Shown here: positions 14,285 to 25,609 of the stretch, piece after piece
Numbering within the stretch: position 1 is the first letter of the stretch
Layout: every line of letters starts with the position of its first letter
Source: Rubrivivax sp.
GTDB taxonomy: Bacteria; Pseudomonadota; Gammaproteobacteria; Burkholderiales; Burkholderiaceae_C
DNA: 32,350 bases
Reading direction: 5' to 3'
NCBI GenBank assembly: GCA_022842825.1
Contig: JALHOU010000027.1
Span: forward strand, 1 to 32,350
Notes under the pieces: generated by a model
Database searches by the model: none
Told to the model about the DNA's origin: nothing
The model's input: the letters and a program-made list of their open reading frames with translations, nothing else
Program-made: the position numbers and the translations under genes

Positions 14285-14809
14285 TCAGGGCGTCGTCGAC
14301 AACAGCGGCGACGCCACCCCTGCCGGCGGCAGGCCTCTCTGGCCTTCGGTGAGGGAATGGCTCTGGAACAGGCCCGAGCGGTCGACAAAGAAGGTCTCCA
14401 CGAATCGGACCACGCCGCCCGGCAGCTTCGCCGGGACCGGGAACGGCGCTGCTCGGCGCAGCAAGGCCACCATCCAGGGCTCGATCGCCTCGGCCGCCGG
14501 CTTGCGCACGACGGCCATCGTGGCGATCTCGCCCTTCTCGTTGATCTCGGCCTCGACCGTGATGACGCCGTAGATCAGTGGCGGCAGCACGCCGAGGTAG
14601 ACGCGGCCCGGGAAGCACTCGTAGACGTGGCGCGCGGCCTCGAGCCGATACGCCTCCTCGGTGCTGCTGGCGGCCGGGGCCTGCGGCGGGCACTGGGGCG
14701 GCGGCACCATGTTGAACTGCGCCGCGGCCAGGGCCGGCAGCGCCAGCAGACACATGCCGGCCAGCACTGGCCGCGCCTTGCCGCGGGCACGCCACCTCAA
14801 CGAAGCCAC
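14285..14809 (-). CDS. Secreted TonB C-terminal-domain-like protein
   Basis: Signal-peptide-like N-terminus (ARPVLAGMCLLALPALAAAQ) and ITVEAEINEKGEIATMAVVRKPAAEAIEPWMVALLRRAAPFPVP, resembling TonB-C. GTG start at 14809 overlaps the corA stop. Confidence 0.6.
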   Translation of the reverse strand: MASLRWRARGKARPVLAGMCLLALPALAAAQFNMVPPPQCPPQAPAASSTEEAYRLEAARHVYECFPGRVYLGVLPPLIYGVITVEAEINEKGEIATMAVVRKPAAEAIEPWMVALLRRAAPFPVPAKLPGGVVRFVETFFVDRSGLFQSHSLTEGQRGLPPAGVASPLLSTTP

Positions 14810-15771
14810 CCCTTGCGCCGGAAGTAGATGAACGGCGCGGCGACGCTGGCCACCATCAGCGCCAATGCGAAGGGGTAGCCCCAGGGCTGCTCGAGCTCGG
14901 GCATGGCGCGGAAGTTCATGCCGTAGATGCTGGCGATGAGCGTTGGCGGCAGCAGGGCGACGCTGGCCACCGAGAAGATCTTGATGATCTTGTTCTGGTT
15001 GATGTTGATGAAGCCGACCACGGCATCCATGAGGAAGTTGATCTTCTCGAACAGGAACGCGGTGTGCGAATCGAGCGAATCGATGTCGCGCAGGATCTGT
15101 CGCGCTTCCTCGAACTGCTCGGCGTTGAGCATGCGGCTGCGCATCATGAAGCTGAGCGCGCGCCGTGTGTCCATGACGTTGCGGCGGATGCGGCCGTTGA
15201 CATCCTCCTCGCGCGCGATGGCGGCCAGCACTTCGGCCGCCGTGCGGTCGTTGACATCCTCCTTCAGCACGCGCGCGCTGACGCGCTCGAGCTGGTCGTA
15301 GATGCCTTCGAGCGCGTCGGCACTGTACTCGGCGTCGGCGTCGTAGAGCTTGAGCAGCACGTCCTTGGCGTCCTCGATCAGCGCCGGGATGCGCCGCGCG
15401 CGCAGGCGCAGCAGGCGAAAGACCGGCAGGTCCTCGGCGTGGATCGAGAACAACACGTTGCGGTACAGGATAAACGCGACGCGCACGTTGCGCGGCGCCA
15501 CGTCGTCGTCGATGAGGAAGTCGGAACGGATGTGCAACTGGCCGCCGTCCTCTTCGTAGAAGCGCGCCGACTCCTCGATGTCGGACTCGACGATGTCGTC
15601 GGGGATCCCGAGTTCGAAGCGGCTCTTGATCCAGCCCTTCTCCTCGGCGCTCGGCGCTTCCAGGTCCACCCACACCGGCTGCACGTGCGCGAGCGACTGC
15701 GCCAGCTCCTCGGCGCTTTCGATCTCTTCCTGGAACAACCGGCCGTTGGCCAGCGTGAAGACGTTGAGCAT
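14797..15771 (-). CDS. corA: CorA family magnesium/cobalt transporter
   Basis: IYGMNF signature, C-terminal transmembrane helices (FALALMVASVAAPFIYFRRKGWL), acidic cytoplasmic N-terminus. ATG at 15771. Confidence 0.93.
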   Translation of the reverse strand: MLNVFTLANGRLFQEEIESAEELAQSLAHVQPVWVDLEAPSAEEKGWIKSRFELGIPDDIVESDIEESARFYEEDGGQLHIRSDFLIDDDVAPRNVRVAFILYRNVLFSIHAEDLPVFRLLRLRARRIPALIEDAKDVLLKLYDADAEYSADALEGIYDQLERVSARVLKEDVNDRTAAEVLAAIAREEDVNGRIRRNVMDTRRALSFMMRSRMLNAEQFEEARQILRDIDSLDSHTAFLFEKINFLMDAVVGFININQNKIIKIFSVASVALLPPTLIASIYGMNFRAMPELEQPWGYPFALALMVASVAAPFIYFRRKGWLR

Positions 15772-15839
15772 GGCGCGTGTCCGCTCGCTGCAAGGTGTCG
15801 GAGCCGGGGTCGACCGAGGCACCCTGTGCGCTGCGCCAT

Positions 15840-17498
15840 TCAAGGCAGCGGCATCACGGGATGTCGGTTCACCGTTGAGGGCTGGGGTCCAATCAAGGGC
15901 TCCGACTGTGGCGACGATGGATTATCCCATCGGCCTTGCGTGGCCGGCCCCGCCGCCGCCTCGGCCTGGAGCGGAAACCAAAGGGTCACGGTGGTTCCCT
16001 GCCCCTCCTTGCTGTCGATCTCGATGCGGCCGCCCTGGAGTTCCACAATCTCCTTGACCAGGCTCATGCCAAGGCCGGTGCCGGGGATGTTTCCACTCGG
16101 GTCGGCCCGGTAGAAGCGTTCGAACACGCGTGCCAGTTGCGGCGCACTCATGCCGATTCCCGGGTCGCGAACGCGCACACCCAGGGTGGGCTGGCTCTCG
16201 AGTCGCCCGGGCACGAGGTCGACCCTGATCTCCCCGCCCGCGGGCGAGTACTTCACCGCGTTCGAAAGCACATTGCTCAGGGCCTGAACCGTCTTGTCCC
16301 GATCCAGCCGGGCGGTGGCCGGGGCGGTGCCTGGCGTCCCCAATGACAGCGCGATGCGGTGCATGCGGTCGCCCACGTGCTGGGCTTGTACGGCCTCCTG
16401 CACCAGCTCGGTCAGGTCCACGCTCCTGCGCTGCAAGACCTGCCCCTGGCGCGACTCGATGCGCGCTAGATCGAGCAGGTCGTTCACCATCGTGATCAGG
16501 CGTCCGCACTGGCGGTGGATGGTCTGCAGCACGTCGCGTCGCCGCGTCTCGTCGATCGGGCGGTTGAGCAGGAGTTCGGTGAAGCCGAAGACGCTCACCA
16601 TCGGCGTGCGCAATTCGTGCGCGGCGGTTGTGAGGAATTCGCTCTTCATGCGGTCGACTTCGAACTCGGCGGTGATGTCGCGCAGATAGATGGCCAGCGC
16701 ACCGTCCTCGCTGCGCCGCGCGCTGATCTCCACCACGCACGCACGCGGGCGTGCCAGGCGCAGCACGCGGGAAGGCGTGTCGCCTCGTGCGGCCGCGCGT
16801 TCGGTGGGGTCTGCAGCGGCGCCACCGAACCAGGGGCCGCAGGGTTGCCCGGGTTCGAGCAAACCTGCCAGGTGCGCGTCCAACGCGGCCGCGGTCAGGC
16901 CCGGCAGCTGCTCGCGACGCATGTCGAGCATGCGAAGCAGCGCGCCATTGGCGTGCAGCACGTGTCCGCCCGGGTCGACCAGCACCATGCCGTTCTGGCC
17001 CAGCTCCAGGATGGTGTCCATCTGCTGCGAGCGCCGTCGGGCACGCGTTGCCATGCGCTGGGTGTCATCCATGGACGTCTGCATGGACCGGGCCAGAAGC
17101 AGCATCTCGCCCACGGCATCGTGGGGCGCGAAGTCATCGAACGCAAGGCCGTGCGCGCGCATCTCCTCCATCGACCCGAGCACCGGCGACACGAGGAGCA
17201 GGACGGTGCCGTCGTCGAACACCTCGCAACTGCCGCGCAGCGACAGCCGAGGCTGGCTCAACGACCTGAGCGTGCACAGGTCGGCACCATGCTCGCGCCA
17301 GGCCTGCACGCTGTCGGCGCCGCGCGGACGGCTGACCTCGAAGCAGCCGGCCAGCGGCATGCCCTCGTTGAGCGCTGGCATCGCCTTGCCCAGCGAGGCG
17401 CCACGGCCCCGAATGCGCAACTCGGCGTCCAGCGACAGGTGGAACGGGAACGCGCGCTCGAGTCGCGCGCCGGAAAGCGCGAGCACGGGTGCGTTCAC
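15840..17498 (-). CDS. HNOBA-PAS sensor histidine kinase (H-NOX associated)
   Basis: N-terminus LERAFPFHLSLDAELRIRGRGASLGKAMPAL...LRGSCEVFDDGTVLLLVSPVLGSMEEMRAHGLAFDDFAPHDAVGEMLLLARS matches the heme-NO-binding-associated domain pattern. Kinase core AAHELRTPMVSVFGFTELLL, NVLSNAVKYSP and GTGLGMSLVKEIVELQGG. GTG start overlaps the H-NOX stop. Confidence 0.9.
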   Translation of the reverse strand: MNAPVLALSGARLERAFPFHLSLDAELRIRGRGASLGKAMPALNEGMPLAGCFEVSRPRGADSVQAWREHGADLCTLRSLSQPRLSLRGSCEVFDDGTVLLLVSPVLGSMEEMRAHGLAFDDFAPHDAVGEMLLLARSMQTSMDDTQRMATRARRRSQQMDTILELGQNGMVLVDPGGHVLHANGALLRMLDMRREQLPGLTAAALDAHLAGLLEPGQPCGPWFGGAAADPTERAAARGDTPSRVLRLARPRACVVEISARRSEDGALAIYLRDITAEFEVDRMKSEFLTTAAHELRTPMVSVFGFTELLLNRPIDETRRRDVLQTIHRQCGRLITMVNDLLDLARIESRQGQVLQRRSVDLTELVQEAVQAQHVGDRMHRIALSLGTPGTAPATARLDRDKTVQALSNVLSNAVKYSPAGGEIRVDLVPGRLESQPTLGVRVRDPGIGMSAPQLARVFERFYRADPSGNIPGTGLGMSLVKEIVELQGGRIEIDSKEGQGTTVTLWFPLQAEAAAGPATQGRWDNPSSPQSEPLIGPQPSTVNRHPVMPLP

Positions 17499-18058
17499 GG
17501 CGCGATGGCCATCACTTCATGTCGCACGCGGAAGGTGTCGTGTGCGCCGGCATCGGTGCGGGCCGCTACATGCTCCACCTCGACTTGCTGGCCGAAGCGT
17601 TTGGCCAGTCCCTTCACGAGGCCAGCCACCATGGGCGCAAGGCCGGCGCGCTCCGACTCGTAGTGAAGCAGATACTCGTCCTCGTCGAGATCCTCGACGC
17701 GGAAGCGCGGCAGGCGCATCTTCGTGAAGATCGTCTCCACGCGGCCGTGCATGGCGTTCAGGTTGCCCAGGAACGAGCGCAGGTCGCTGCCGCCGGCGCT
17801 CATCAACTCGCCGTAGCCTTCGTCGGCGGTGTAGAGAACCCAATACTCGCCAAAAGCTTCGAGCACCTGGTGCGCCGTGAGGCCGAGCTCTTCGCTCACG
17901 GCACCGACGAGCTTGTAGGTGATGTCGTCGTGGTAGGGGCACATGGCGACGAAGCCGTCGCTGTCCACGCCGGCGCGGTGGCAGACCCGCTCCCAGGCGG
18001 CCTCGCCGCGCGCCGATACGACCAGCTGCTCGATGGCTCGGTTGACCAGTCCGTACAT
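17495..18058 (-). CDS. H-NOX (heme-nitric oxide/oxygen binding) domain protein
   Basis: MYGLVNRAIEQLV N-terminus, LNAMHGRVETIF (candidate proximal His), MRLPRFRV (conserved Pro), LHYESERAGLAPMVAGLVKG (YxSxR heme-propionate motif). Confidence 0.92.
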   Translation of the reverse strand: MYGLVNRAIEQLVVSARGEAAWERVCHRAGVDSDGFVAMCPYHDDITYKLVGAVSEELGLTAHQVLEAFGEYWVLYTADEGYGELMSAGGSDLRSFLGNLNAMHGRVETIFTKMRLPRFRVEDLDEDEYLLHYESERAGLAPMVAGLVKGLAKRFGQQVEVEHVAARTDAGAHDTFRVRHEVMAIAP

Positions 18059-18096: not shown

Positions 18097-20733
18097 TCAG
18101 CCAGCGCTAAGCGCCGGTGCCGCGGGTTGGGGGGAGGCCGGCTCGACGGCCCACCACAGCGTGACGGCCGTTCCCCGGCCGAGTTCGCTGTGGATGTCGA
18201 CCCGGCCGCCGTGCAGCTCGACGATCTCCTTGACGAGGCACATGCCCAGTCCGGTGCCGGGGATGTTGCCGCTCGGGTCGGCCCGGTAGAAGCGCTCGAA
18301 CACCCGGGCGACCTGCTCCTCGCTCATTCCGACGCCGCGATCGACGATTCGCACGCCCAGCGCAGGCTGGCCGCGCAGCTCACCGTTGCGCGTGGTGACG
18401 ACGATCGGCCCGCCGCGGGGCGAGTACTTGACGGCGTTGGAGAGCACATTGGTCAGGGCTTGCTGCGTCTTGTCCTTGTCCACGAAGATGAGCGCGTCGC
18501 CGTCGGCCAGCTCGACGACGATGTCGTTGCCGCGAGGGCCGACCCGCAGCGGCTCGACCGCGCCGCCGACGAGCTCGGCAATGCCGCACTGGGTGCGCTT
18601 GATGTCCTTGCCTTGCCGGGCCTCGATGCGCGCCAGGTCGAGCAGTTCGTTGACCATGTGGATCAGCAAGGAGGCCTGGCGGTGGATCGTCTCGAGCATG
18701 TCGCGGCGCCGCTCTTCCGGCACTTGCCGTCGCAGCAACAGCTCGGTGAACCCGAATACGCTGACCATCGGCGTGCGCAGTTCGTGCGCTGCCGTGGTGA
18801 GGAACTCGCTCTTCATGCGGTCCACCTCGGTTTCGCGCGTGACGTCGCGGAAGAAGAGGATGGTCTCCACGTGCCCGTCGTGCGGGCTGCGCGCCACGCG
18901 GTCCAGCACGCGCCGCTCGGGCCGAGTGAGCAGCATCGTCTCGGGCGCCTGATCGCCTCCGGGGACCAGGACCTCGGCCAGCGGCCGCGGCTGCTGCGCC
19001 GGGCCGGCCTCGCACTGCGCGAGCATGCGCGCCTCGAATTCCTGCACACCGAGGCCGACGATGTCGGGGTCGGCGTGCCAGCCCGTCATCTCCAGGAAGG
19101 CGGGGTTGCAGTAGACGAGCTTCGAGTCACCGTCGAACACGACGAACCCATCCGGGCTCAACTCGAACACCGCGTTGAGGCGCGCGCTGCGCTCGGCGAT
19201 CGCCATGCGCGCGCGCTCGCGGTCGGTGACGTCGTTGAGCACGCCGACGTAGTGGCGCACGCTGCCGTCGGGCTCGCCCACGGGCGCGATGGCCAGCTCG
19301 TTGAAGAACAGGGTGCCGTCCTTGCGGTAGTTGCGCAGCACCACCTGCGCACTGCGCCGCTCGGCCACGGCACGGCGGAGCTCGTCGATCTCGGGCTGCT
19401 GCACGTCGTCGCGCTGCAGCAGGCTGCAATTGCGGCCGATCACGTCCATCGGCTCGAAGCCGGTGATGCGGTAGAAGGCCGGGTTGGCGTAGAAGACCGG
19501 CTGCGCGGGCATGCTGACGTCGGAAATGACGATGCCGTTGGTGGTGCACTCCAGCGCGCGGCCGTACAGGTGCACGAGGTCCATCGACATGCGCGCCTCG
19601 GTGAGGTCGCGCACGAGGGCGGCGTAGCGCGGCCCCTCAGAAGTGTCGATTCGCGTCAGCGACACCTCGGCCGGGAAGGGCGTGCCGTCGCTGCGCATGG
19701 CCTCGGTCTCGAAGCGGGCCACGTGCGACCGCGTCGAGCGCATGTACAGACCCTGCATGGTGCGCGTCTCGACCTCTTCGGCGGTGAGCCCGGGCAGCAT
19801 GGCCACCAGAGACAGGCCCACGGCCTGCTCGGGCTCGAGCCCGAACACTGAGCGCACGCCTGGATTGGCGATGCGCACACGGCACTCGCCGTCCATGCCG
19901 ATGAGCGCGTCGGGCACGGCGTTCAACAGCGCTGCCTGGGCCGTGTCGTGCTCGCGCAGGGCGGCCAGCTGCAAGTGCAGGGCGGTCGAAGCCTCGTTCA
20001 GCGCGTCGGCCAGCTCGGCCACCTCGCGGCTGCCGGTGTGGACCTCGATGCGTTGCCCGCTGCCGCCGGCCAGTCCGCGCGAGAAGCGCGCCAGACGCTG
20101 CAGCGGGCTGACCGCCCGGGCGACGAACCAGGAGGTCACCGCCAGCATCAGCAGGCCGACGAAGGCTGCGGCCAGCAGTACGTCGTTGCGCAGGTTGCTG
20201 AAGGGGTGTTCCTCGGCCGGCAACCGGTAGGCGATGCCCACGCTGCCCAGGGTGCTGCCCGGGCCGGCGCCCGCCCAGGCGCGCAGGGTGCCGTCGGCAT
20301 CCGCCGGGCCACCCTTGCCGGGGCCGGCCATGGTCGCTGCGGTGCCGCTCGACTCGGGCTGCGCGACGCGGCCGTCGTCCTTCTGGATCAGCCGCAGGAC
20401 GCTTCGGCCATCGCGGTCGACGACGTGCACCTCCCGGGTGGCGGGCATCGCGGCGATGTCGCGCAGGGCCTGCTCCAGCCCGGCGCGGTCGCCGGTCACC
20501 AGATGCCGCGCGGCCTGGCCGGCGGCCGCCTGCGCGAGCGCCTGGACCCAGGCCTGTTCCGAGGCAGCGGCCGCCTGCTGCAGCCGCCAGGTGGAAACCT
20601 GCGCCAGCACGGCCATCGCGATGGCCGTGACCAGGGCCAGCAGCCAGATGATCTGCAGGCGCAGCGGGCGGCCGCTCCGGCCGAGAGTGGCCGCCGGCGC
20701 GTCCGCAGGCCCTTCGAACACAGGGGAGGACAT
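18097..20733 (-). CDS. Membrane sensor histidine kinase with periplasmic region, HAMP-like region and multiple PAS domains including a LOV-type domain
   Basis: Two TM segments (IIWLLALVTAIAMAVLAQV, VLLAAAFVGLLMLAVTSWFVA). LOV signature YANPAFYRITGFEPMDVIGRNCSLLQ...LRNYRKDGTLFFNELAIAPV. HisKA AAHELRTPMVSVFGF and HATPase GTGLGMCLVKEIVELHGG. ATG at 20733 preceded by GAGGTG. Confidence 0.9.
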   Translation of the reverse strand: MSSPVFEGPADAPAATLGRSGRPLRLQIIWLLALVTAIAMAVLAQVSTWRLQQAAAASEQAWVQALAQAAAGQAARHLVTGDRAGLEQALRDIAAMPATREVHVVDRDGRSVLRLIQKDDGRVAQPESSGTAATMAGPGKGGPADADGTLRAWAGAGPGSTLGSVGIAYRLPAEEHPFSNLRNDVLLAAAFVGLLMLAVTSWFVARAVSPLQRLARFSRGLAGGSGQRIEVHTGSREVAELADALNEASTALHLQLAALREHDTAQAALLNAVPDALIGMDGECRVRIANPGVRSVFGLEPEQAVGLSLVAMLPGLTAEEVETRTMQGLYMRSTRSHVARFETEAMRSDGTPFPAEVSLTRIDTSEGPRYAALVRDLTEARMSMDLVHLYGRALECTTNGIVISDVSMPAQPVFYANPAFYRITGFEPMDVIGRNCSLLQRDDVQQPEIDELRRAVAERRSAQVVLRNYRKDGTLFFNELAIAPVGEPDGSVRHYVGVLNDVTDRERARMAIAERSARLNAVFELSPDGFVVFDGDSKLVYCNPAFLEMTGWHADPDIVGLGVQEFEARMLAQCEAGPAQQPRPLAEVLVPGGDQAPETMLLTRPERRVLDRVARSPHDGHVETILFFRDVTRETEVDRMKSEFLTTAAHELRTPMVSVFGFTELLLRRQVPEERRRDMLETIHRQASLLIHMVNELLDLARIEARQGKDIKRTQCGIAELVGGAVEPLRVGPRGNDIVVELADGDALIFVDKDKTQQALTNVLSNAVKYSPRGGPIVVTTRNGELRGQPALGVRIVDRGVGMSEEQVARVFERFYRADPSGNIPGTGLGMCLVKEIVELHGGRVDIHSELGRGTAVTLWWAVEPASPQPAAPALSAG

Positions 20734-20746
20734 GGGAGCGACCACC

Positions 20747-21118
20747 TCAGGCCGTGGCCATCAGGCGCTCGATGGTGTCGATGAGCTGCAGCGGGCTGAA
20801 GGGCTTGACAAGGTACTCGTCGGCTCCCGCGGCACGGCCGGCTTCCTGGTCGCGCGCCTGGCCGCGCGCGGTGAGCAGCACCACCTTCACGTGCCGCAGC
20901 TTGGGGTCGGCCTTGATCGCCTGGCACACCTGCAGCCCATCCATCTCGCCGGGCATCATCACGTCCAGCAGCACGATCGACGGCGTCACCGCGCGCGCCA
21001 TGCGCAGGCCGCCCGCGCCATCGCACGCCTCGTGGATCTCGTAGGCCTCGAACTCGAGGGTCATGCGGATGAGCTTGCGGATGTCGGACTGGTCTTCGAC
21101 GATGAGGACGCGGTTCAT
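20747..21118 (-). CDS. Single-domain response regulator (CheY-like receiver)
   Basis: MNRVLIVEDQSDIRKLIRMTLEFEAYEIHEA...PSIVLLDVMMPGEMDGLQVC...KVVLLTARG...GADEYLVKPFSP. GGAGG RBS upstream of ATG 21118. Confidence 0.94.
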   Translation of the reverse strand: MNRVLIVEDQSDIRKLIRMTLEFEAYEIHEACDGAGGLRMARAVTPSIVLLDVMMPGEMDGLQVCQAIKADPKLRHVKVVLLTARGQARDQEAGRAAGADEYLVKPFSPLQLIDTIERLMATA

Positions 21119-21200
21119 GTGTGCCTCCGGAGGGTTCGGGGTGTCGGTACGGTTGGCTTGTGTCGGCAGGCTCGGCGGGTCGCGCACCAGGGCGGTCGGC

Positions 21201-22331
21201 TCAACGGCTTTCTGCGCCGGCCGGCAACGCGGCGGGGGCGGCGTGCCTGCGGGCGCGGTTCATCAGCGCGGCCAGGTCGCTGGCGTAACGCTGCGCCTGG
21301 GCGATGTCCAGTTGCGGGGCGGCATCGCGATGCGGCGCACCGGTGGGCAGTTCGATGAGGAAGTTGCGTTGGCCGTCCTCGTGCTCCTCGCGCAGCTGGC
21401 CGCCGTGCAGCGAGACGATGTGCTGGCACAGCTTGAGGCCGATCTGCTCGCGCGCGCCGGCCACAGGCTGCTTGGGCGTTGCCACCTTGGCACGCGCAGG
21501 CATCGGCACGCCGGCCGCGGCGCTGTTGCGGGCGGCGAAGACGCCGCAATTGCGGAACACGATGAGCGCACGCGCGCCCATCTGGCGGTGCTCGATCTCG
21601 AGCAGGCTGCCGCGCTGCGTGGCGCGCACGGCAGCGTCCAGACACTCGGCGAACACGCGCTTGAGCCAGCGCTCGCTGCCGTACAGGGTGGCCAGGCTGT
21701 CGGCGCCGGTCTGGGCGTGGAAGCGGACCTTCACGGCGCGGTCCATCGCCAGCGGCTCGATCTCGGCCCACACGTGCTGCAGCATCGGCCACAGCTCGAT
21801 GCGGTCGTTGGCCAGCAGGGTGCCGCTGCCCCAGAGGCTGGCCAGGTCCACGAGCTTGTCCACGACGTCGAGCACCTGGCCCACGCCATCGGCCAGCGCC
21901 TCGATCTCGCCCGCGCCGGAGTGCGACTGCACGAGTTCCAGCGCCGCGCGCGCGCCGCGCAGCGGCTCGCGCACATCCGTGCGGATGGCCTGCATCAGGT
22001 TGTCGAAGCCGGAGCCGTCGTCCTGGCCGATCTGCGGCCCGATGAGGACGAAGGCATCGTCCTGCGCCAGGCCCGGGATGACGCGGCACTTCATCTCGAC
22101 GTTGCTGGCCCCTGCGCCGACCACTCCGGCGGCAGCAACGGCGCGCGGCACACGACCGGCCACCGACTGCGAGACCGCCTTCGCGAGGTCCGGGTCGTAC
22201 AGTTTGCGTCCGGGCGCAAGCCCGGTGCGGGCCGCCGCCTCGCCGTTGGCGTAGCGCACGATGCCTTCGCGCGTCACCCACAGCAGCCCTGGGCGCAGGT
22301 TCTCGAGCAGTTCGGTCAGTGATGCATGCAT
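21201..22331 (-). CDS. Degenerate sensor histidine kinase-like protein (PAS-like N-terminus, altered H- and N-boxes)
   Basis: MHASLTELLENLRPGLLWVTREGIVRYANGEAAARTGL (PAS-like). AIRTDVREPLRGARAALELV occupies the H-box position without His. IGLKLCQHIVSLHGGQL resembles a G2-box. GGAG RBS upstream of ATG 22331. Confidence 0.72.
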   Translation of the reverse strand: MHASLTELLENLRPGLLWVTREGIVRYANGEAAARTGLAPGRKLYDPDLAKAVSQSVAGRVPRAVAAAGVVGAGASNVEMKCRVIPGLAQDDAFVLIGPQIGQDDGSGFDNLMQAIRTDVREPLRGARAALELVQSHSGAGEIEALADGVGQVLDVVDKLVDLASLWGSGTLLANDRIELWPMLQHVWAEIEPLAMDRAVKVRFHAQTGADSLATLYGSERWLKRVFAECLDAAVRATQRGSLLEIEHRQMGARALIVFRNCGVFAARNSAAAGVPMPARAKVATPKQPVAGAREQIGLKLCQHIVSLHGGQLREEHEDGQRNFLIELPTGAPHRDAAPQLDIAQAQRYASDLAALMNRARRHAAPAALPAGAESR

Positions 22332-22419
22332 GTCGGTCTCCTTGGAACGCATGATGCCATTTCTATCATTTTGAGCAGAAGGAACTGCTTCACGCTTGCG
22401 CAGGCAATTCCCGGAGGGG

Positions 22420-24042
22420 TCAGCCGAGCGTGAGCGTGTCGCCGGTGCGGCCGGGCACGCGCACGTGGAAGGCGCTGCCGCCGCCGCGGGCGTTCTCGGC
22501 GTGGATGCGGCCGCCGTGCGCCTCGACGATCTTGCGGCTGATGGTCAGGCCGAGACCGGTGCCGCCCGAACCGTCCTTCGTCTTGCTCGACTGCACGAAG
22601 GCCTGGAAGATGGCTTCCAGCTCGGCTGGCGGGATGCCCGGGCCGTGGTCGCGGACGCAGACGTGGACCTGGTTCTCGGCATCGATGTCCCCGGTGACCT
22701 CGATCGTCTGCCCGGGCGGCGAGAAGCGGATGGCGTTGGCGAGCAGGTTGCGCAGCACCTGCTGGTAGCGCAGCGGGTCGACCTTGGCCACCATCGGCGC
22801 CTCGCACAGGCCGAGCTCGACGTGCAGGCGGCGCTCGGCCAGCAGCGGCTGCAGCTCGCGCAGCACCTCGCGCACGAGGGTGCGCACGTCGATGCGCTCG
22901 AGGTGGAAGGTGCCCACGGCGCTCTCGATCTTGGACACGTCGAGCAGGTCGTTCACCAGAGCCAGCATGCGCTCGCCGGCGGCGTGAATGTCGCCGAACA
23001 TGGCGCCGAGCCGGGGCTCCTTGCTGCGCAGGTGGCCGAGCTCGGAGAAGCCGATGATCGACTGCAGCGGCGTGCGCAACTCGTGGCTGATGTTGGCGAT
23101 GAACTCGCTCTTGGCGCGCGAGGCCTCCTCGGCGATGTCGCGCGCCTCGCGCACGGCGCGCTCCGCGTCGCGAAACTCGCTCACGTCCATGAAGGCCACC
23201 AGCACGCCGGCCGGCCGGCCGTCCGGGCCGGGCACGGCGGCCTTGCTGATGGCCACGTCGCGACGCGAGCCGTCGCGGTGCAGGAGCGAGGCCTCGTAGC
23301 GCGCGCTGCCTCCCAGGCGCAGCAGCTCGCGGTCGCGCACGTCGTGCAGGACGGCTTCCTCCGCGGACAGGTAGTCGCGCGCGCGCCGGCCGGCCACCTC
23401 GGCGCGGCGGCGGCCGGTGAACTCCTCCCAGGCCTGGTTCACCGACTGGTAGCGGTTGTCGGCATCGAGCATCGACACCGGCAGCGGCATCACCTCGAGC
23501 AGCTGGCCGATGAAGTCCAGCTGCGACTGCAGGCGCTGGCGCGCCTGCTCGCGCTCGGTCACGTCGGCGGCGCTGCCGGCATAGCCAACGAGGCGTTGCC
23601 CGGCCTTCAGCGGCAGCACGGCGACCTCGAAGCGCCGCCAGCGGCCGGCCTGCCCCATCTGCACGACGGCCGTACGAGGTCCTTCGCCACCGCCGAAGAG
23701 GGCCCGTGTGGCGGCGGCGGACTCGGGCGCCACCCAGTCGGCCAACGGGCGGCCGATCGCCGCGACCTCCTGCCCGCCGGTGGCCGCGCCCCAACGGGCG
23801 TTGACGAACGTCAGGCGGCCCTGCGCGTCGGTCCGGAACAGCAGCGCCTGGACGCTCTCGACGATGGCACTCAGGTCGCGCTCGCGCGCCGCGACGGCTG
23901 CCAGCGCCTGCTCGCGCGAACGCAAGCGCCGCAAGGCCCACGCCGCCAGCCCGCTGACGAGCAGCAGCGCCAGCGGCGCCGCCCACGACGCGGCGGCCTC
24001 GAGGGCACCGGCCAGGGCGAGGCCGGGGTCTGTGGCGGCCAT
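22420..24042 (-). CDS. PAS-PAS sensor histidine kinase
   Basis: AKSEFIANISHELRTPLQSIIGFSELG, QVLRNLLANAIRFSPPGQ, DHGPGIPPAELEAIFQAFVQ, GTGLGLTISRKIVEAHGGRI; two PAS regions and an N-terminal TM helix. Confidence 0.93.
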   Translation of the reverse strand: MAATDPGLALAGALEAAASWAAPLALLLVSGLAAWALRRLRSREQALAAVAARERDLSAIVESVQALLFRTDAQGRLTFVNARWGAATGGQEVAAIGRPLADWVAPESAAATRALFGGGEGPRTAVVQMGQAGRWRRFEVAVLPLKAGQRLVGYAGSAADVTEREQARQRLQSQLDFIGQLLEVMPLPVSMLDADNRYQSVNQAWEEFTGRRRAEVAGRRARDYLSAEEAVLHDVRDRELLRLGGSARYEASLLHRDGSRRDVAISKAAVPGPDGRPAGVLVAFMDVSEFRDAERAVREARDIAEEASRAKSEFIANISHELRTPLQSIIGFSELGHLRSKEPRLGAMFGDIHAAGERMLALVNDLLDVSKIESAVGTFHLERIDVRTLVREVLRELQPLLAERRLHVELGLCEAPMVAKVDPLRYQQVLRNLLANAIRFSPPGQTIEVTGDIDAENQVHVCVRDHGPGIPPAELEAIFQAFVQSSKTKDGSGGTGLGLTISRKIVEAHGGRIHAENARGGGSAFHVRVPGRTGDTLTLG

Positions 24043-24049
24043 CGCGGCC

Positions 24050-24847
24050 TCAGGCCTGCGCGGGCTCGGGCAGCCCGTCGCGCAAGGCGCCGAAGCGGGG
24101 CCGCGCGGCGTTGATGCGGTCTCGCAGCGCCATGAAGCTGGGCGCCTCGGCCAGGAAGGCGTCGACCAGGCGCGGGTCGAAGGCGCGCGCGCGCTGCGCG
24201 GCGAGCATCTCGAGTGCCTTCTCGTCGCTGAAGGCCCTGCGATAGCAGCGATCCATCGTCAGCGCATCGAAGAAATCGACGACGGCCACCAGCCGGCCGC
24301 TGAGCGGGATCGCCCCGCCGGCGAGGCGGTGTGGATAGCCGCTGCCGTCCCACCGCTCGTGGTGGGTGAGCGCGACGTCCGCGGCCATGTGGAACAGCGG
24401 GATGCGCGACTGCCCGAGGATGCCAGCGCCAAGCACCGGGTGCTGGTCCATCACGGCGCGCTCGTCGGCCAGGAGCGGGCCGGGCTTCTTGAGCACGTCG
24501 TCGGGGATGCCGATCTTGCCCACGTCGTGCAGCGGCGCGGCCTGGCGCAGCATCGCCGCCTCGTCGGCCTTGCGGCCGACGGCCAGCGCCAGGGCCTCGG
24601 CCAGGAAGCCGATGCGCACGATGTGCACGCCGGTCTCGTCGTCGCGCGTCTCGGCCGCCAGCGCCAGCCTGAAGAGCGCCTCGTGATGCGCCCGCGCGAC
24701 CTCCTGCAGCGCCTCGTTGCGCTCCCGGTACAGGCGGCGCAGGTCGGTGACCAGCCGCATCATCTGGCCGAAAGCGCCGGGATCGAAGCAGGTGTCGCCC
24801 GGCGCCTCGGCGTGGGCCGCGAGCTCATGTTCGGTCGTCAGCATCAT
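24050..24847 (-). CDS. HD-GYP domain cyclic di-GMP phosphodiesterase-like protein
   Basis: PLHDVGKIGIPDDVLKKPGPL, HHERWDGSGYPHRLAGGAIPLSGRLVAVVDFFDALTMDR (HD and HHExxDGxGYP intact). Start ATG at 24847 or 24844. Confidence 0.9.
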   Translation of the reverse strand: MMLTTEHELAAHAEAPGDTCFDPGAFGQMMRLVTDLRRLYRERNEALQEVARAHHEALFRLALAAETRDDETGVHIVRIGFLAEALALAVGRKADEAAMLRQAAPLHDVGKIGIPDDVLKKPGPLLADERAVMDQHPVLGAGILGQSRIPLFHMAADVALTHHERWDGSGYPHRLAGGAIPLSGRLVAVVDFFDALTMDRCYRRAFSDEKALEMLAAQRARAFDPRLVDAFLAEAPSFMALRDRINAARPRFGALRDGLPEPAQA

Positions 24848-24887
24848 GATCAGATTGTCACTGAGAACGTTTTTAGCATTTTGGCCA

Positions 24888-24919
24888 TCTGCCGATCTTC
24901 GCGGTCGCAAGACGGCAGA
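24888..24919. promoter_or_regulatory. Imperfect dyad in divergent intergenic region (candidate operator or attenuator)
   Basis: TCTGCCG(A)TCTT...AAGACGGCAGA: 11-bp arms with one bulged A, between HD-GYP (-) and HTH-receiver (+). Confidence 0.4.
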
Positions 24920-24955
24920 ATTGCTCGAAACCTGATCACGAACGGCCATACCCGC

Positions 24956-25609
24956 ATGTCCGACACCTACTCGACGCTGGAGGTCGCGCGCCTGCTGGGC
25001 ATGGCGGTGCGTTCGGTGCAGTTGATGGTGGACCGTGGCGAACTCGCGGCATGGAAGACGCCGGGCGGCCACCGCCGGATCCTGCGCGATTCGGTGGAGC
25101 GCTGGCGCGCCGAGCGCGGCCTCGCCGCAAACGCGACAGCCCGCTCCGCCCAGCGCACGGCCGAAACCGCGCGCGAGCCTGCCGCCGTGGCGGCTGCGGC
25201 CGCCGAGGCCGGCGAGCCCGACACGCCCGTGGTGCTGCTGATCGAGGACTCCAAGCACTTCCAGAACCTCATCAGCCTGCTGGTCAGGCAGCACTTCCCG
25301 GGCGTGGACCTGCAGGTCGCCGACGACGGGATCGCCGGGCTGGCGATGGCCGGTCGGCTGCGACCGCGATTGCTCATCGTCGACATTCTGCTGCCGGGCA
25401 TCGACGGCGCCGCGCTCATCGGCAGCCTCAGGCTGCATCCGCAGTTCGCTGGCATGCAGCTCGTCGTCGTGACGTCGCTGGACGAGGCGCAGCGCGAGCC
25501 CTACGCCTTCGCGTTGCAGGACGTGCCGGTGGTGCACAAGCCGCGGCTCGTGGCCGAACTGCCGCCCCTGCTGCGCACGCTGCTCGTGCCGCAGGATCTC
25601 GATGCCTGA
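24956..25609 (+). CDS. Excisionase/MerR-type HTH DNA-binding domain fused to a C-terminal response-regulator receiver
   Basis: MSDTYSTLEVARLLGMAVRSVQLMVDRGELAAWKTPGGHRRILRDSVERW (helix-turn-helix), then VVLLIEDSKHFQNLISLLVRQHFPGVDLQVADDGIAGLAMAGRLRPRLLIVDILLPGIDG (receiver). Confidence 0.88.
   Translation: MSDTYSTLEVARLLGMAVRSVQLMVDRGELAAWKTPGGHRRILRDSVERWRAERGLAANATARSAQRTAETAREPAAVAAAAAEAGEPDTPVVLLIEDSKHFQNLISLLVRQHFPGVDLQVADDGIAGLAMAGRLRPRLLIVDILLPGIDGAALIGSLRLHPQFAGMQLVVVTSLDEAQREPYAFALQDVPVVHKPRLVAELPPLLRTLLVPQDLDA

Follow-up and report, generated by a model that had tools for sequence, protein, structure and literature searches.

Organization of the locus

The window, meaning the whole 32,350-nucleotide stretch of Rubrivivax sp. 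DNA that was analysed, carries a run of genes on the minus strand. The run comprises an HD_5 (HD-GYP-type) protein (24050..25978), the PAS-PAS histidine kinase HKa (22420..24042), the HATPase-bearing protein HKb (21201..22352), a single-domain response regulator (20747..21187), a LOV-containing membrane histidine kinase (18097..20745), a stand-alone H-NOX (haem NO/O2 binding) protein (17495..18058) and an HNOBA-domain histidine kinase (15840..17498), all assigned with Pfam, and CorA (14797-15843). The regulator matches Response_reg, and the H-NOX protein matches HNOB at 6.2e-49.

The LOV kinase open reading frame starts with GTG and encodes 882 residues. Read directly from the translation, its N-terminus has two hydrophobic segments flanking a presumed periplasmic region of ~130 residues. 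Pfam places a weak HAMP, PAS1, LOV, PAS3, HisKA and HATPase_c behind it in this order. The HisKA domain has an intact H-box with its phospho-acceptor His, so that HisKA and HATPase_c together make up the core of a sensor histidine kinase. The stop codon of the response regulator gene ends one base ahead of the kinase GTG. In most orthologous loci HKb, the regulator and the LOV kinase co-occur, with the regulator upstream, and the adjacent regulator is the probable partner of the kinase. At the H-box position of HKb, the sequence IRTDVREPL has no His. Most HKb orthologs read IRxDLRDPL or similar and likewise lack it, so HKb is a conserved pseudokinase-like protein. The HD_5 protein possibly provides a c-di-GMP output.

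On the other side of the LOV kinase, the H-NOX gene overlaps the start of the HNOBA kinase gene. The YxSxR motif can be read in the translated H-NOX protein, as can a candidate proximal His. In their catalytic cores, the LOV and HNOBA kinases are 64% identical over 228 residues (blastp), against ~32% to HKa, and helix 1 of their HisKA domains is very similar. This difference in identity points to a duplication and to a response regulator used in common; the HNOBA sister kinase may use the regulator adjacent to the LOV kinase. The pair looks as if one kinase had been duplicated and then fitted with a new sensor.

A reading made earlier from the sequence only had placed the LOV domain next to a NO-sensing system. 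The H-NOX and HNOBA kinase genes do adjoin it, but the arrangement is rarely shared. Of the 20 other genomes searched that have a relative of the LOV kinase, one has H-NOX and 19 lack it, among them all of the same-genus ones. At the level of loci, those examined show it in the window, L032, L033 and L036 and nowhere else. Therefore, the physical link between LOV kinase and H-NOX is not a conserved one, H-NOX as an obligate partner is ruled out, and H-NOX does not define the LOV kinase system.

Identity of the LOV domain

Residues ~388-515 of the kinase are confirmed as a LOV-family domain, nearer to LOV than to other PAS domains in sequence and fold. With its flanking helices, the domain spans residues 387-524 (19174..19587, minus strand), as delimited by PDB sequence matches, AlphaFold2 and Foldseek. 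Searched against the PDB with phmmer, the 105-residue LOV core matched 146 sequences, the best at 1e-23, and the best 60 of the 146 are LOV or phototropin-type proteins, judged by their names. Of the two remaining PAS domains in the kinase, one gave seven matches (best 6.6e-8), namely six FixL-type haem PAS domains and one unnamed sensor kinase, and the other gave none. That LOV proteins head the matches here, unlike for PAS1 and PAS3, shows that the assignment is not due to chance.

The sequence-only reading had proposed a LOV-type domain within a membrane histidine kinase and a scoring of LOV against generic PAS models as its check. In that scoring, 12 canonical LOV rows were used to build a profile, which scored the domain at 168 bits. 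PAS1 and PAS3 reached 12-16 bits, and two PAS relatives that lack the LOV motif (L080, L085) reached 93-106 bits. In addition, the NCBIfam YtvA-family and blue-light histidine kinase models fall on residues ~386-524; the kinase misses their whole-protein cut-offs, as expected from its different architecture. The AlphaFold2 model of the domain has a mean pLDDT of 92.4. Its best Foldseek matches are LOV structures with TM scores of 0.91-0.92, and LOV proteins or constructs account for all of the 50 matches listed. The PDB, profile and fold comparisons thus bear out the proposal and rule out a generic PAS or haem PAS identity. In the host genome it is the sole LOV domain with the motif; the runner-up is 33% identical (E 4e-11) and reads GRRTAEFM.

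Residues of the flavin pocket

The domain aligns to AsLOV2 without gaps, and the 9vf8 sequence gives the same register. The adduct-forming Cys of the GxNC motif is present as Cys440 (AsLOV2 C450; codon TGC, 19426..19428, minus strand). Also kept are N449, L453, Q454, R467, N482, N492 and G511 in AsLOV2 numbering, among them the ring-contacting Asn pair and the motif Gln (N472, N482 and Q444 in the kinase). The ring-contacting residues besides the flipping Gln are standard or conservative. Three positions depart from AsLOV2: R451 to S, F452 to L and Q513 to L. Ser441 (codon AGC, 19423..19425, minus strand) occupies the place of the FMN-phosphate Arg, R451 in AsLOV2 and R63 in YtvA (PMC3836802, PMC4335406). 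Leu442 stands for the motif Phe, so the motif reads GRNCSLLQ instead of GxNCRFLQ. On strand I-beta, Leu503 (codon CTC, 19237..19239, minus strand) replaces the flipping Gln in GVLND. In LOV proteins, R451 and R467 touch the FMN phosphate (PMC4335406), and their YtvA equivalents are R63 and R79 (PMC3836802).

These residues agree with the pocket described from the sequence before the present analysis. The Cys codon had been placed exactly, the Gln-to-Leu and Arg-to-Ser replacements are real, and the GRN Asn, NYRKDG and the FFN Asn are all found in the translation; the Phe-to-Leu departure was missing from that list.

Relatives and constraint

Searches of related loci and genomes recovered relatives in Rubrivivax, Piscinibacter, Roseateles, Rhodocyclaceae and others. 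The nearest read GRNCSFLQ and GVLND, and a change private to the host genome or a sequencing error is thereby ruled out. None of the pocket replacements is private to the window. LOV domains without the Gln are frequent in the bacterial family of the host, so the replacement is less unusual than the sequence-only reading took it to be. On a tree of 39 relatives, made from the C-terminal parts of the LOV kinases with the LOV columns included, the fewest state changes are five for Gln513, four for Arg451 and five for Cys450. Canonical versions (NCR...Q) occur in the Rhodocyclaceae sequences L031, L034 and L035. Arg is absent and Gln retained in L110-L112, both are absent in the group of the window, and Cys is absent in L019, L029, L036, L113 and L120. 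With these groups on the tree, loss of the Gln is a stage of a relaxation that goes further. The five changes of Cys state imply that photochemistry is not required by the whole family. Whether loss of Arg451 goes together with that of Arg467, Gln or Cys was tested on independent pairs, but too few of them were informative for significance to be reached.

Some relatives have pockets of their own kind. L029, from Piscinibacter aquaticus, is the window protein's natural opposite: its motif GRPFDFLL has no Cys, but the Gln and the two ring Asn are still there. One Rhodocyclaceae kinase (L031, L034) carries a tandem LOV-like pair, of which the first domain is Cys-less (GRDWRFL(H/Q)...GVLND) and the second canonical (NCRFLQ...GVQND). 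In L019-L022, from Roseateles and relatives, the ring Asn read N482H and N492D, G511 is replaced by Tyr or Trp, and one sequence is also Cys-less; judging from these replacements, their pockets are probably no longer canonical flavin pockets.

Fitch changes were counted for each of 109 LOV columns, with a focal clade of 20 rows. Position 451 changes 11 times in the focal clade (99th percentile) against seven times outside it (76th), and position 467 seven times (86th) against once (20th). By these counts, both phosphate-clamp Arg positions have turned fast-evolving in the Rubrivivax-type clade, which is the newer point of this analysis.

Most flavin-ring contacts and the Cys are invariant in the 14 core orthologs, namely C450, N482, N492, Q454, L466, L494, Y509 and G511 (AsLOV2 numbering). 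As 49 of the 109 LOV columns are invariant in this set, invariance of the Cys alone is weak evidence. Compared with the remaining columns, the ring-contact columns give p = 0.03 in the 14 rows and p = 0.19 in 16 rows, the latter including two Cys-less sequences; this is suggestive of conservation modestly above background. The members of the canonical set in this comparison were picked by Arg451 and Gln513, which makes the lack of variability at 451 and 513 there a matter of construction; position 467 played no part in the selection. In all five pairwise comparisons, the LOV domain has the lowest dN among the sensory domains. Only the dN ranks between domains were used, because dS is high and uneven (0.3-0.8, in GC-rich DNA) and makes dN/dS rough.

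Discussion

The explanation we favour, at a probability of roughly 55%, is that the domain is a true LOV sensor that binds flavin, is photoactive with an altered output and feeds the adjacent response regulator, on which the H-NOX-gated sister kinase probably converges. The flavin would sit in the usual ring pocket, where a blue-light cysteine adduct is still possible. The signal would probably be relayed through a transient water, as proposed for other LOV proteins lacking the Gln. By analogy, we expect a blue-shifted absorption, a slower dark recovery and a smaller amplitude. Loss of one phosphate Arg would make the pocket less FMN-specific, so that it accepts riboflavin or FAD as well, and may alter the adduct kinetics. 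The state of the LOV domain would pass through the third PAS domain and the linker to HisKA, which would phosphorylate or dephosphorylate the adjacent regulator. In the host species, the sister kinase probably feeds the same regulator, and a shared regulator would integrate light or flavin state with NO.

Published work on related pockets is consistent with a functional sensor. According to PMC9098866, the Gln is dispensable in several LOV proteins, and ~350 natural proteins without it are known, mostly with Leu or Ile, of which the tested ones still signal. The same paper gives, for Gln-to-Leu replacements, a hypsochromic shift of ~8 nm, a slower dark recovery (10-fold in YF1 Q123L and 22-fold in AsLOV2 Q513L) and attenuated yet working signalling, in agreement with the blue shift and weaker output that the sequence-only reading had cited. 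That such proteins, including the histidine kinase YF1 with a Gln-to-Leu change, respond to light argues by analogy for a light response here. In addition, YtvA-LOV has no lower affinity for riboflavin and FAD than for FMN, and the FMN phosphate contributes little binding energy (PMC3836802), so loss of the phosphate Arg need not stop binding. Together, the dispensable Gln and the flavin tolerance of YtvA-LOV are best matched by a sensor with altered kinetics that is photoactive or, at the least, binds flavin. Our literature search found no experimentally tested protein in which both Arg and Gln are naturally replaced, and no paper naming Rubrivivax with a LOV domain and photoreceptor.

Light is relevant to the host, a purple photosynthetic bacterium whose genome has photosynthetic reaction-centre genes and two BLUF domains, which are other blue-light sensors (contigs C165 and C50; loci L139 and L140). 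Reaction-centre genes are present in 12 of the 20 genomes with a LOV-kinase relative. They speak against a sensor of redox state, in which flavin reduction and N5 protonation, not light, would alter kinase activity, and loss of the Gln and the clamp would tune midpoint potential and flavin choice. So does the Cys, which would be needless for pure redox sensing and is retained in 14 of 14 core orthologs. LOV receptors have been proposed to double as redox sensors, and Q513M raises the midpoint potential of AsLOV2 (PMC11151830). A redox role would also suit the conservation of most ring contacts beside a variable Gln and two variable phosphate Arg positions, the dispensability of the Cys in related lineages and an adjoining H-NOX that would sense NO. 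We regard it as unlikely on balance. It is doubtful, too, that the domain is a former LOV that has given up flavin and serves as an ordinary PAS relay or dimerisation module, with the losses of Arg, Gln and in places Cys as signs of decay. The five Cys-less relatives and the His and Asp at the ring Asn positions of Roseateles-type sequences point that way, but the window protein has standard or conservative residues at its ring contacts apart from the Gln, its LOV domain evolves slowest among the sensory domains, and the core orthologs retain the Cys and both ring Asn. It is chiefly the repeated Cys loss in relatives that lets the redox and flavin-loss explanations keep weight.

The high turnover at position 451, which ranks first or near the top among LOV columns of the focal clade for rate of change, and the rise at position 467 from one change outside the clade to seven inside could also reflect selection against the phosphate clamp in a light sensor dedicated to a flavin without the phosphate, such as riboflavin. 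We consider this very improbable: high variability is a sign that constraint has relaxed, not that a new residue is being selected, the window protein retains Arg467, and YtvA binds riboflavin well despite having both Arg (PMC3836802). A more tentative and rather improbable extension of the relaxation is that the LOV domain of the clade has been freed from FMN-phosphate recognition with ring pocket and Cys kept, as a riboflavin-tolerant or dual redox/light sensor merged with NO through the shared regulator in the host species.

The clade offers a natural series of one kinase with canonical, Arg-less, Arg- and Gln-less, and Cys-less LOV domains, many of whose hosts are phototrophs. The series allows testing which pocket residues flavin choice, photochemistry and signal output need, and in what way a light sensor may drift towards another function.

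Comparison with known systems

With its stand-alone H-NOX gene that overlaps the gene of an HNOBA histidine kinase, the locus resembles known H-NOX/HNOBA-kinase two-component systems; the pair adjoins the LOV kinase here and in a few other loci and is missing from most genomes with a LOV-kinase relative. The closest solved structures to the LOV domain are those of short LOV proteins and Meiothermus MrLOV (7r5n, 7a6p, 9vf7/9vf8; 1e-23, TM 0.91). These are isolated LOV constructs or short LOV proteins, unlike the window kinase, and 9vf8 reads GRNCRFLQ and GIQSD, unlike the window LOV. As in Brucella LOV-HK, Caulobacter LovK and the chimeras YF1 and SB2F1, a LOV sensor governs a histidine kinase, and structures of Brucella LOV-HK, YF1 and SB2F1 are among the Foldseek and PDB sequence matches. 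All four of these proteins retain the Gln and the Arg. Unlike in them, the LOV domain here is flanked by two PAS domains and follows HAMP and an N-terminal membrane sensor.

Another close parallel is the LOV-deltaQ receptors, which include a Mesorhizobium loti LOV-GGDEF-EAL protein and the engineered YF1 Q123L (Dietler et al. 2022, PMC9098866). The window LOV has the adduct Cys, the ring Asn and a hydrophobic residue for the Gln in common with them, and by analogy would share the blue shift and the working but attenuated signalling. Unlike those receptors, it has lost the phosphate Arg and the motif Phe as well and sits mid-protein in a membrane PAS-LOV-PAS kinase. The filter of that paper takes proteins without Gln123 that keep at least 8 of 9 YtvA residues (G59, N61, C62, R63, F64, L65, Q66, N94 and N104). 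The window LOV keeps 7 of 9, Arg and Phe being the missing ones, and its near relatives L092 and L093 (GRNCSFLQ) keep 8 of 9. Since sensors without the Gln are known and usually still work, the window LOV counts as a variant and not as a novel type of system. It is a variant by combination, joining the loss of Gln and Arg and a clade-wide release of both phosphate-clamp positions to a PAS-LOV-PAS membrane kinase beside an H-NOX sister kinase.
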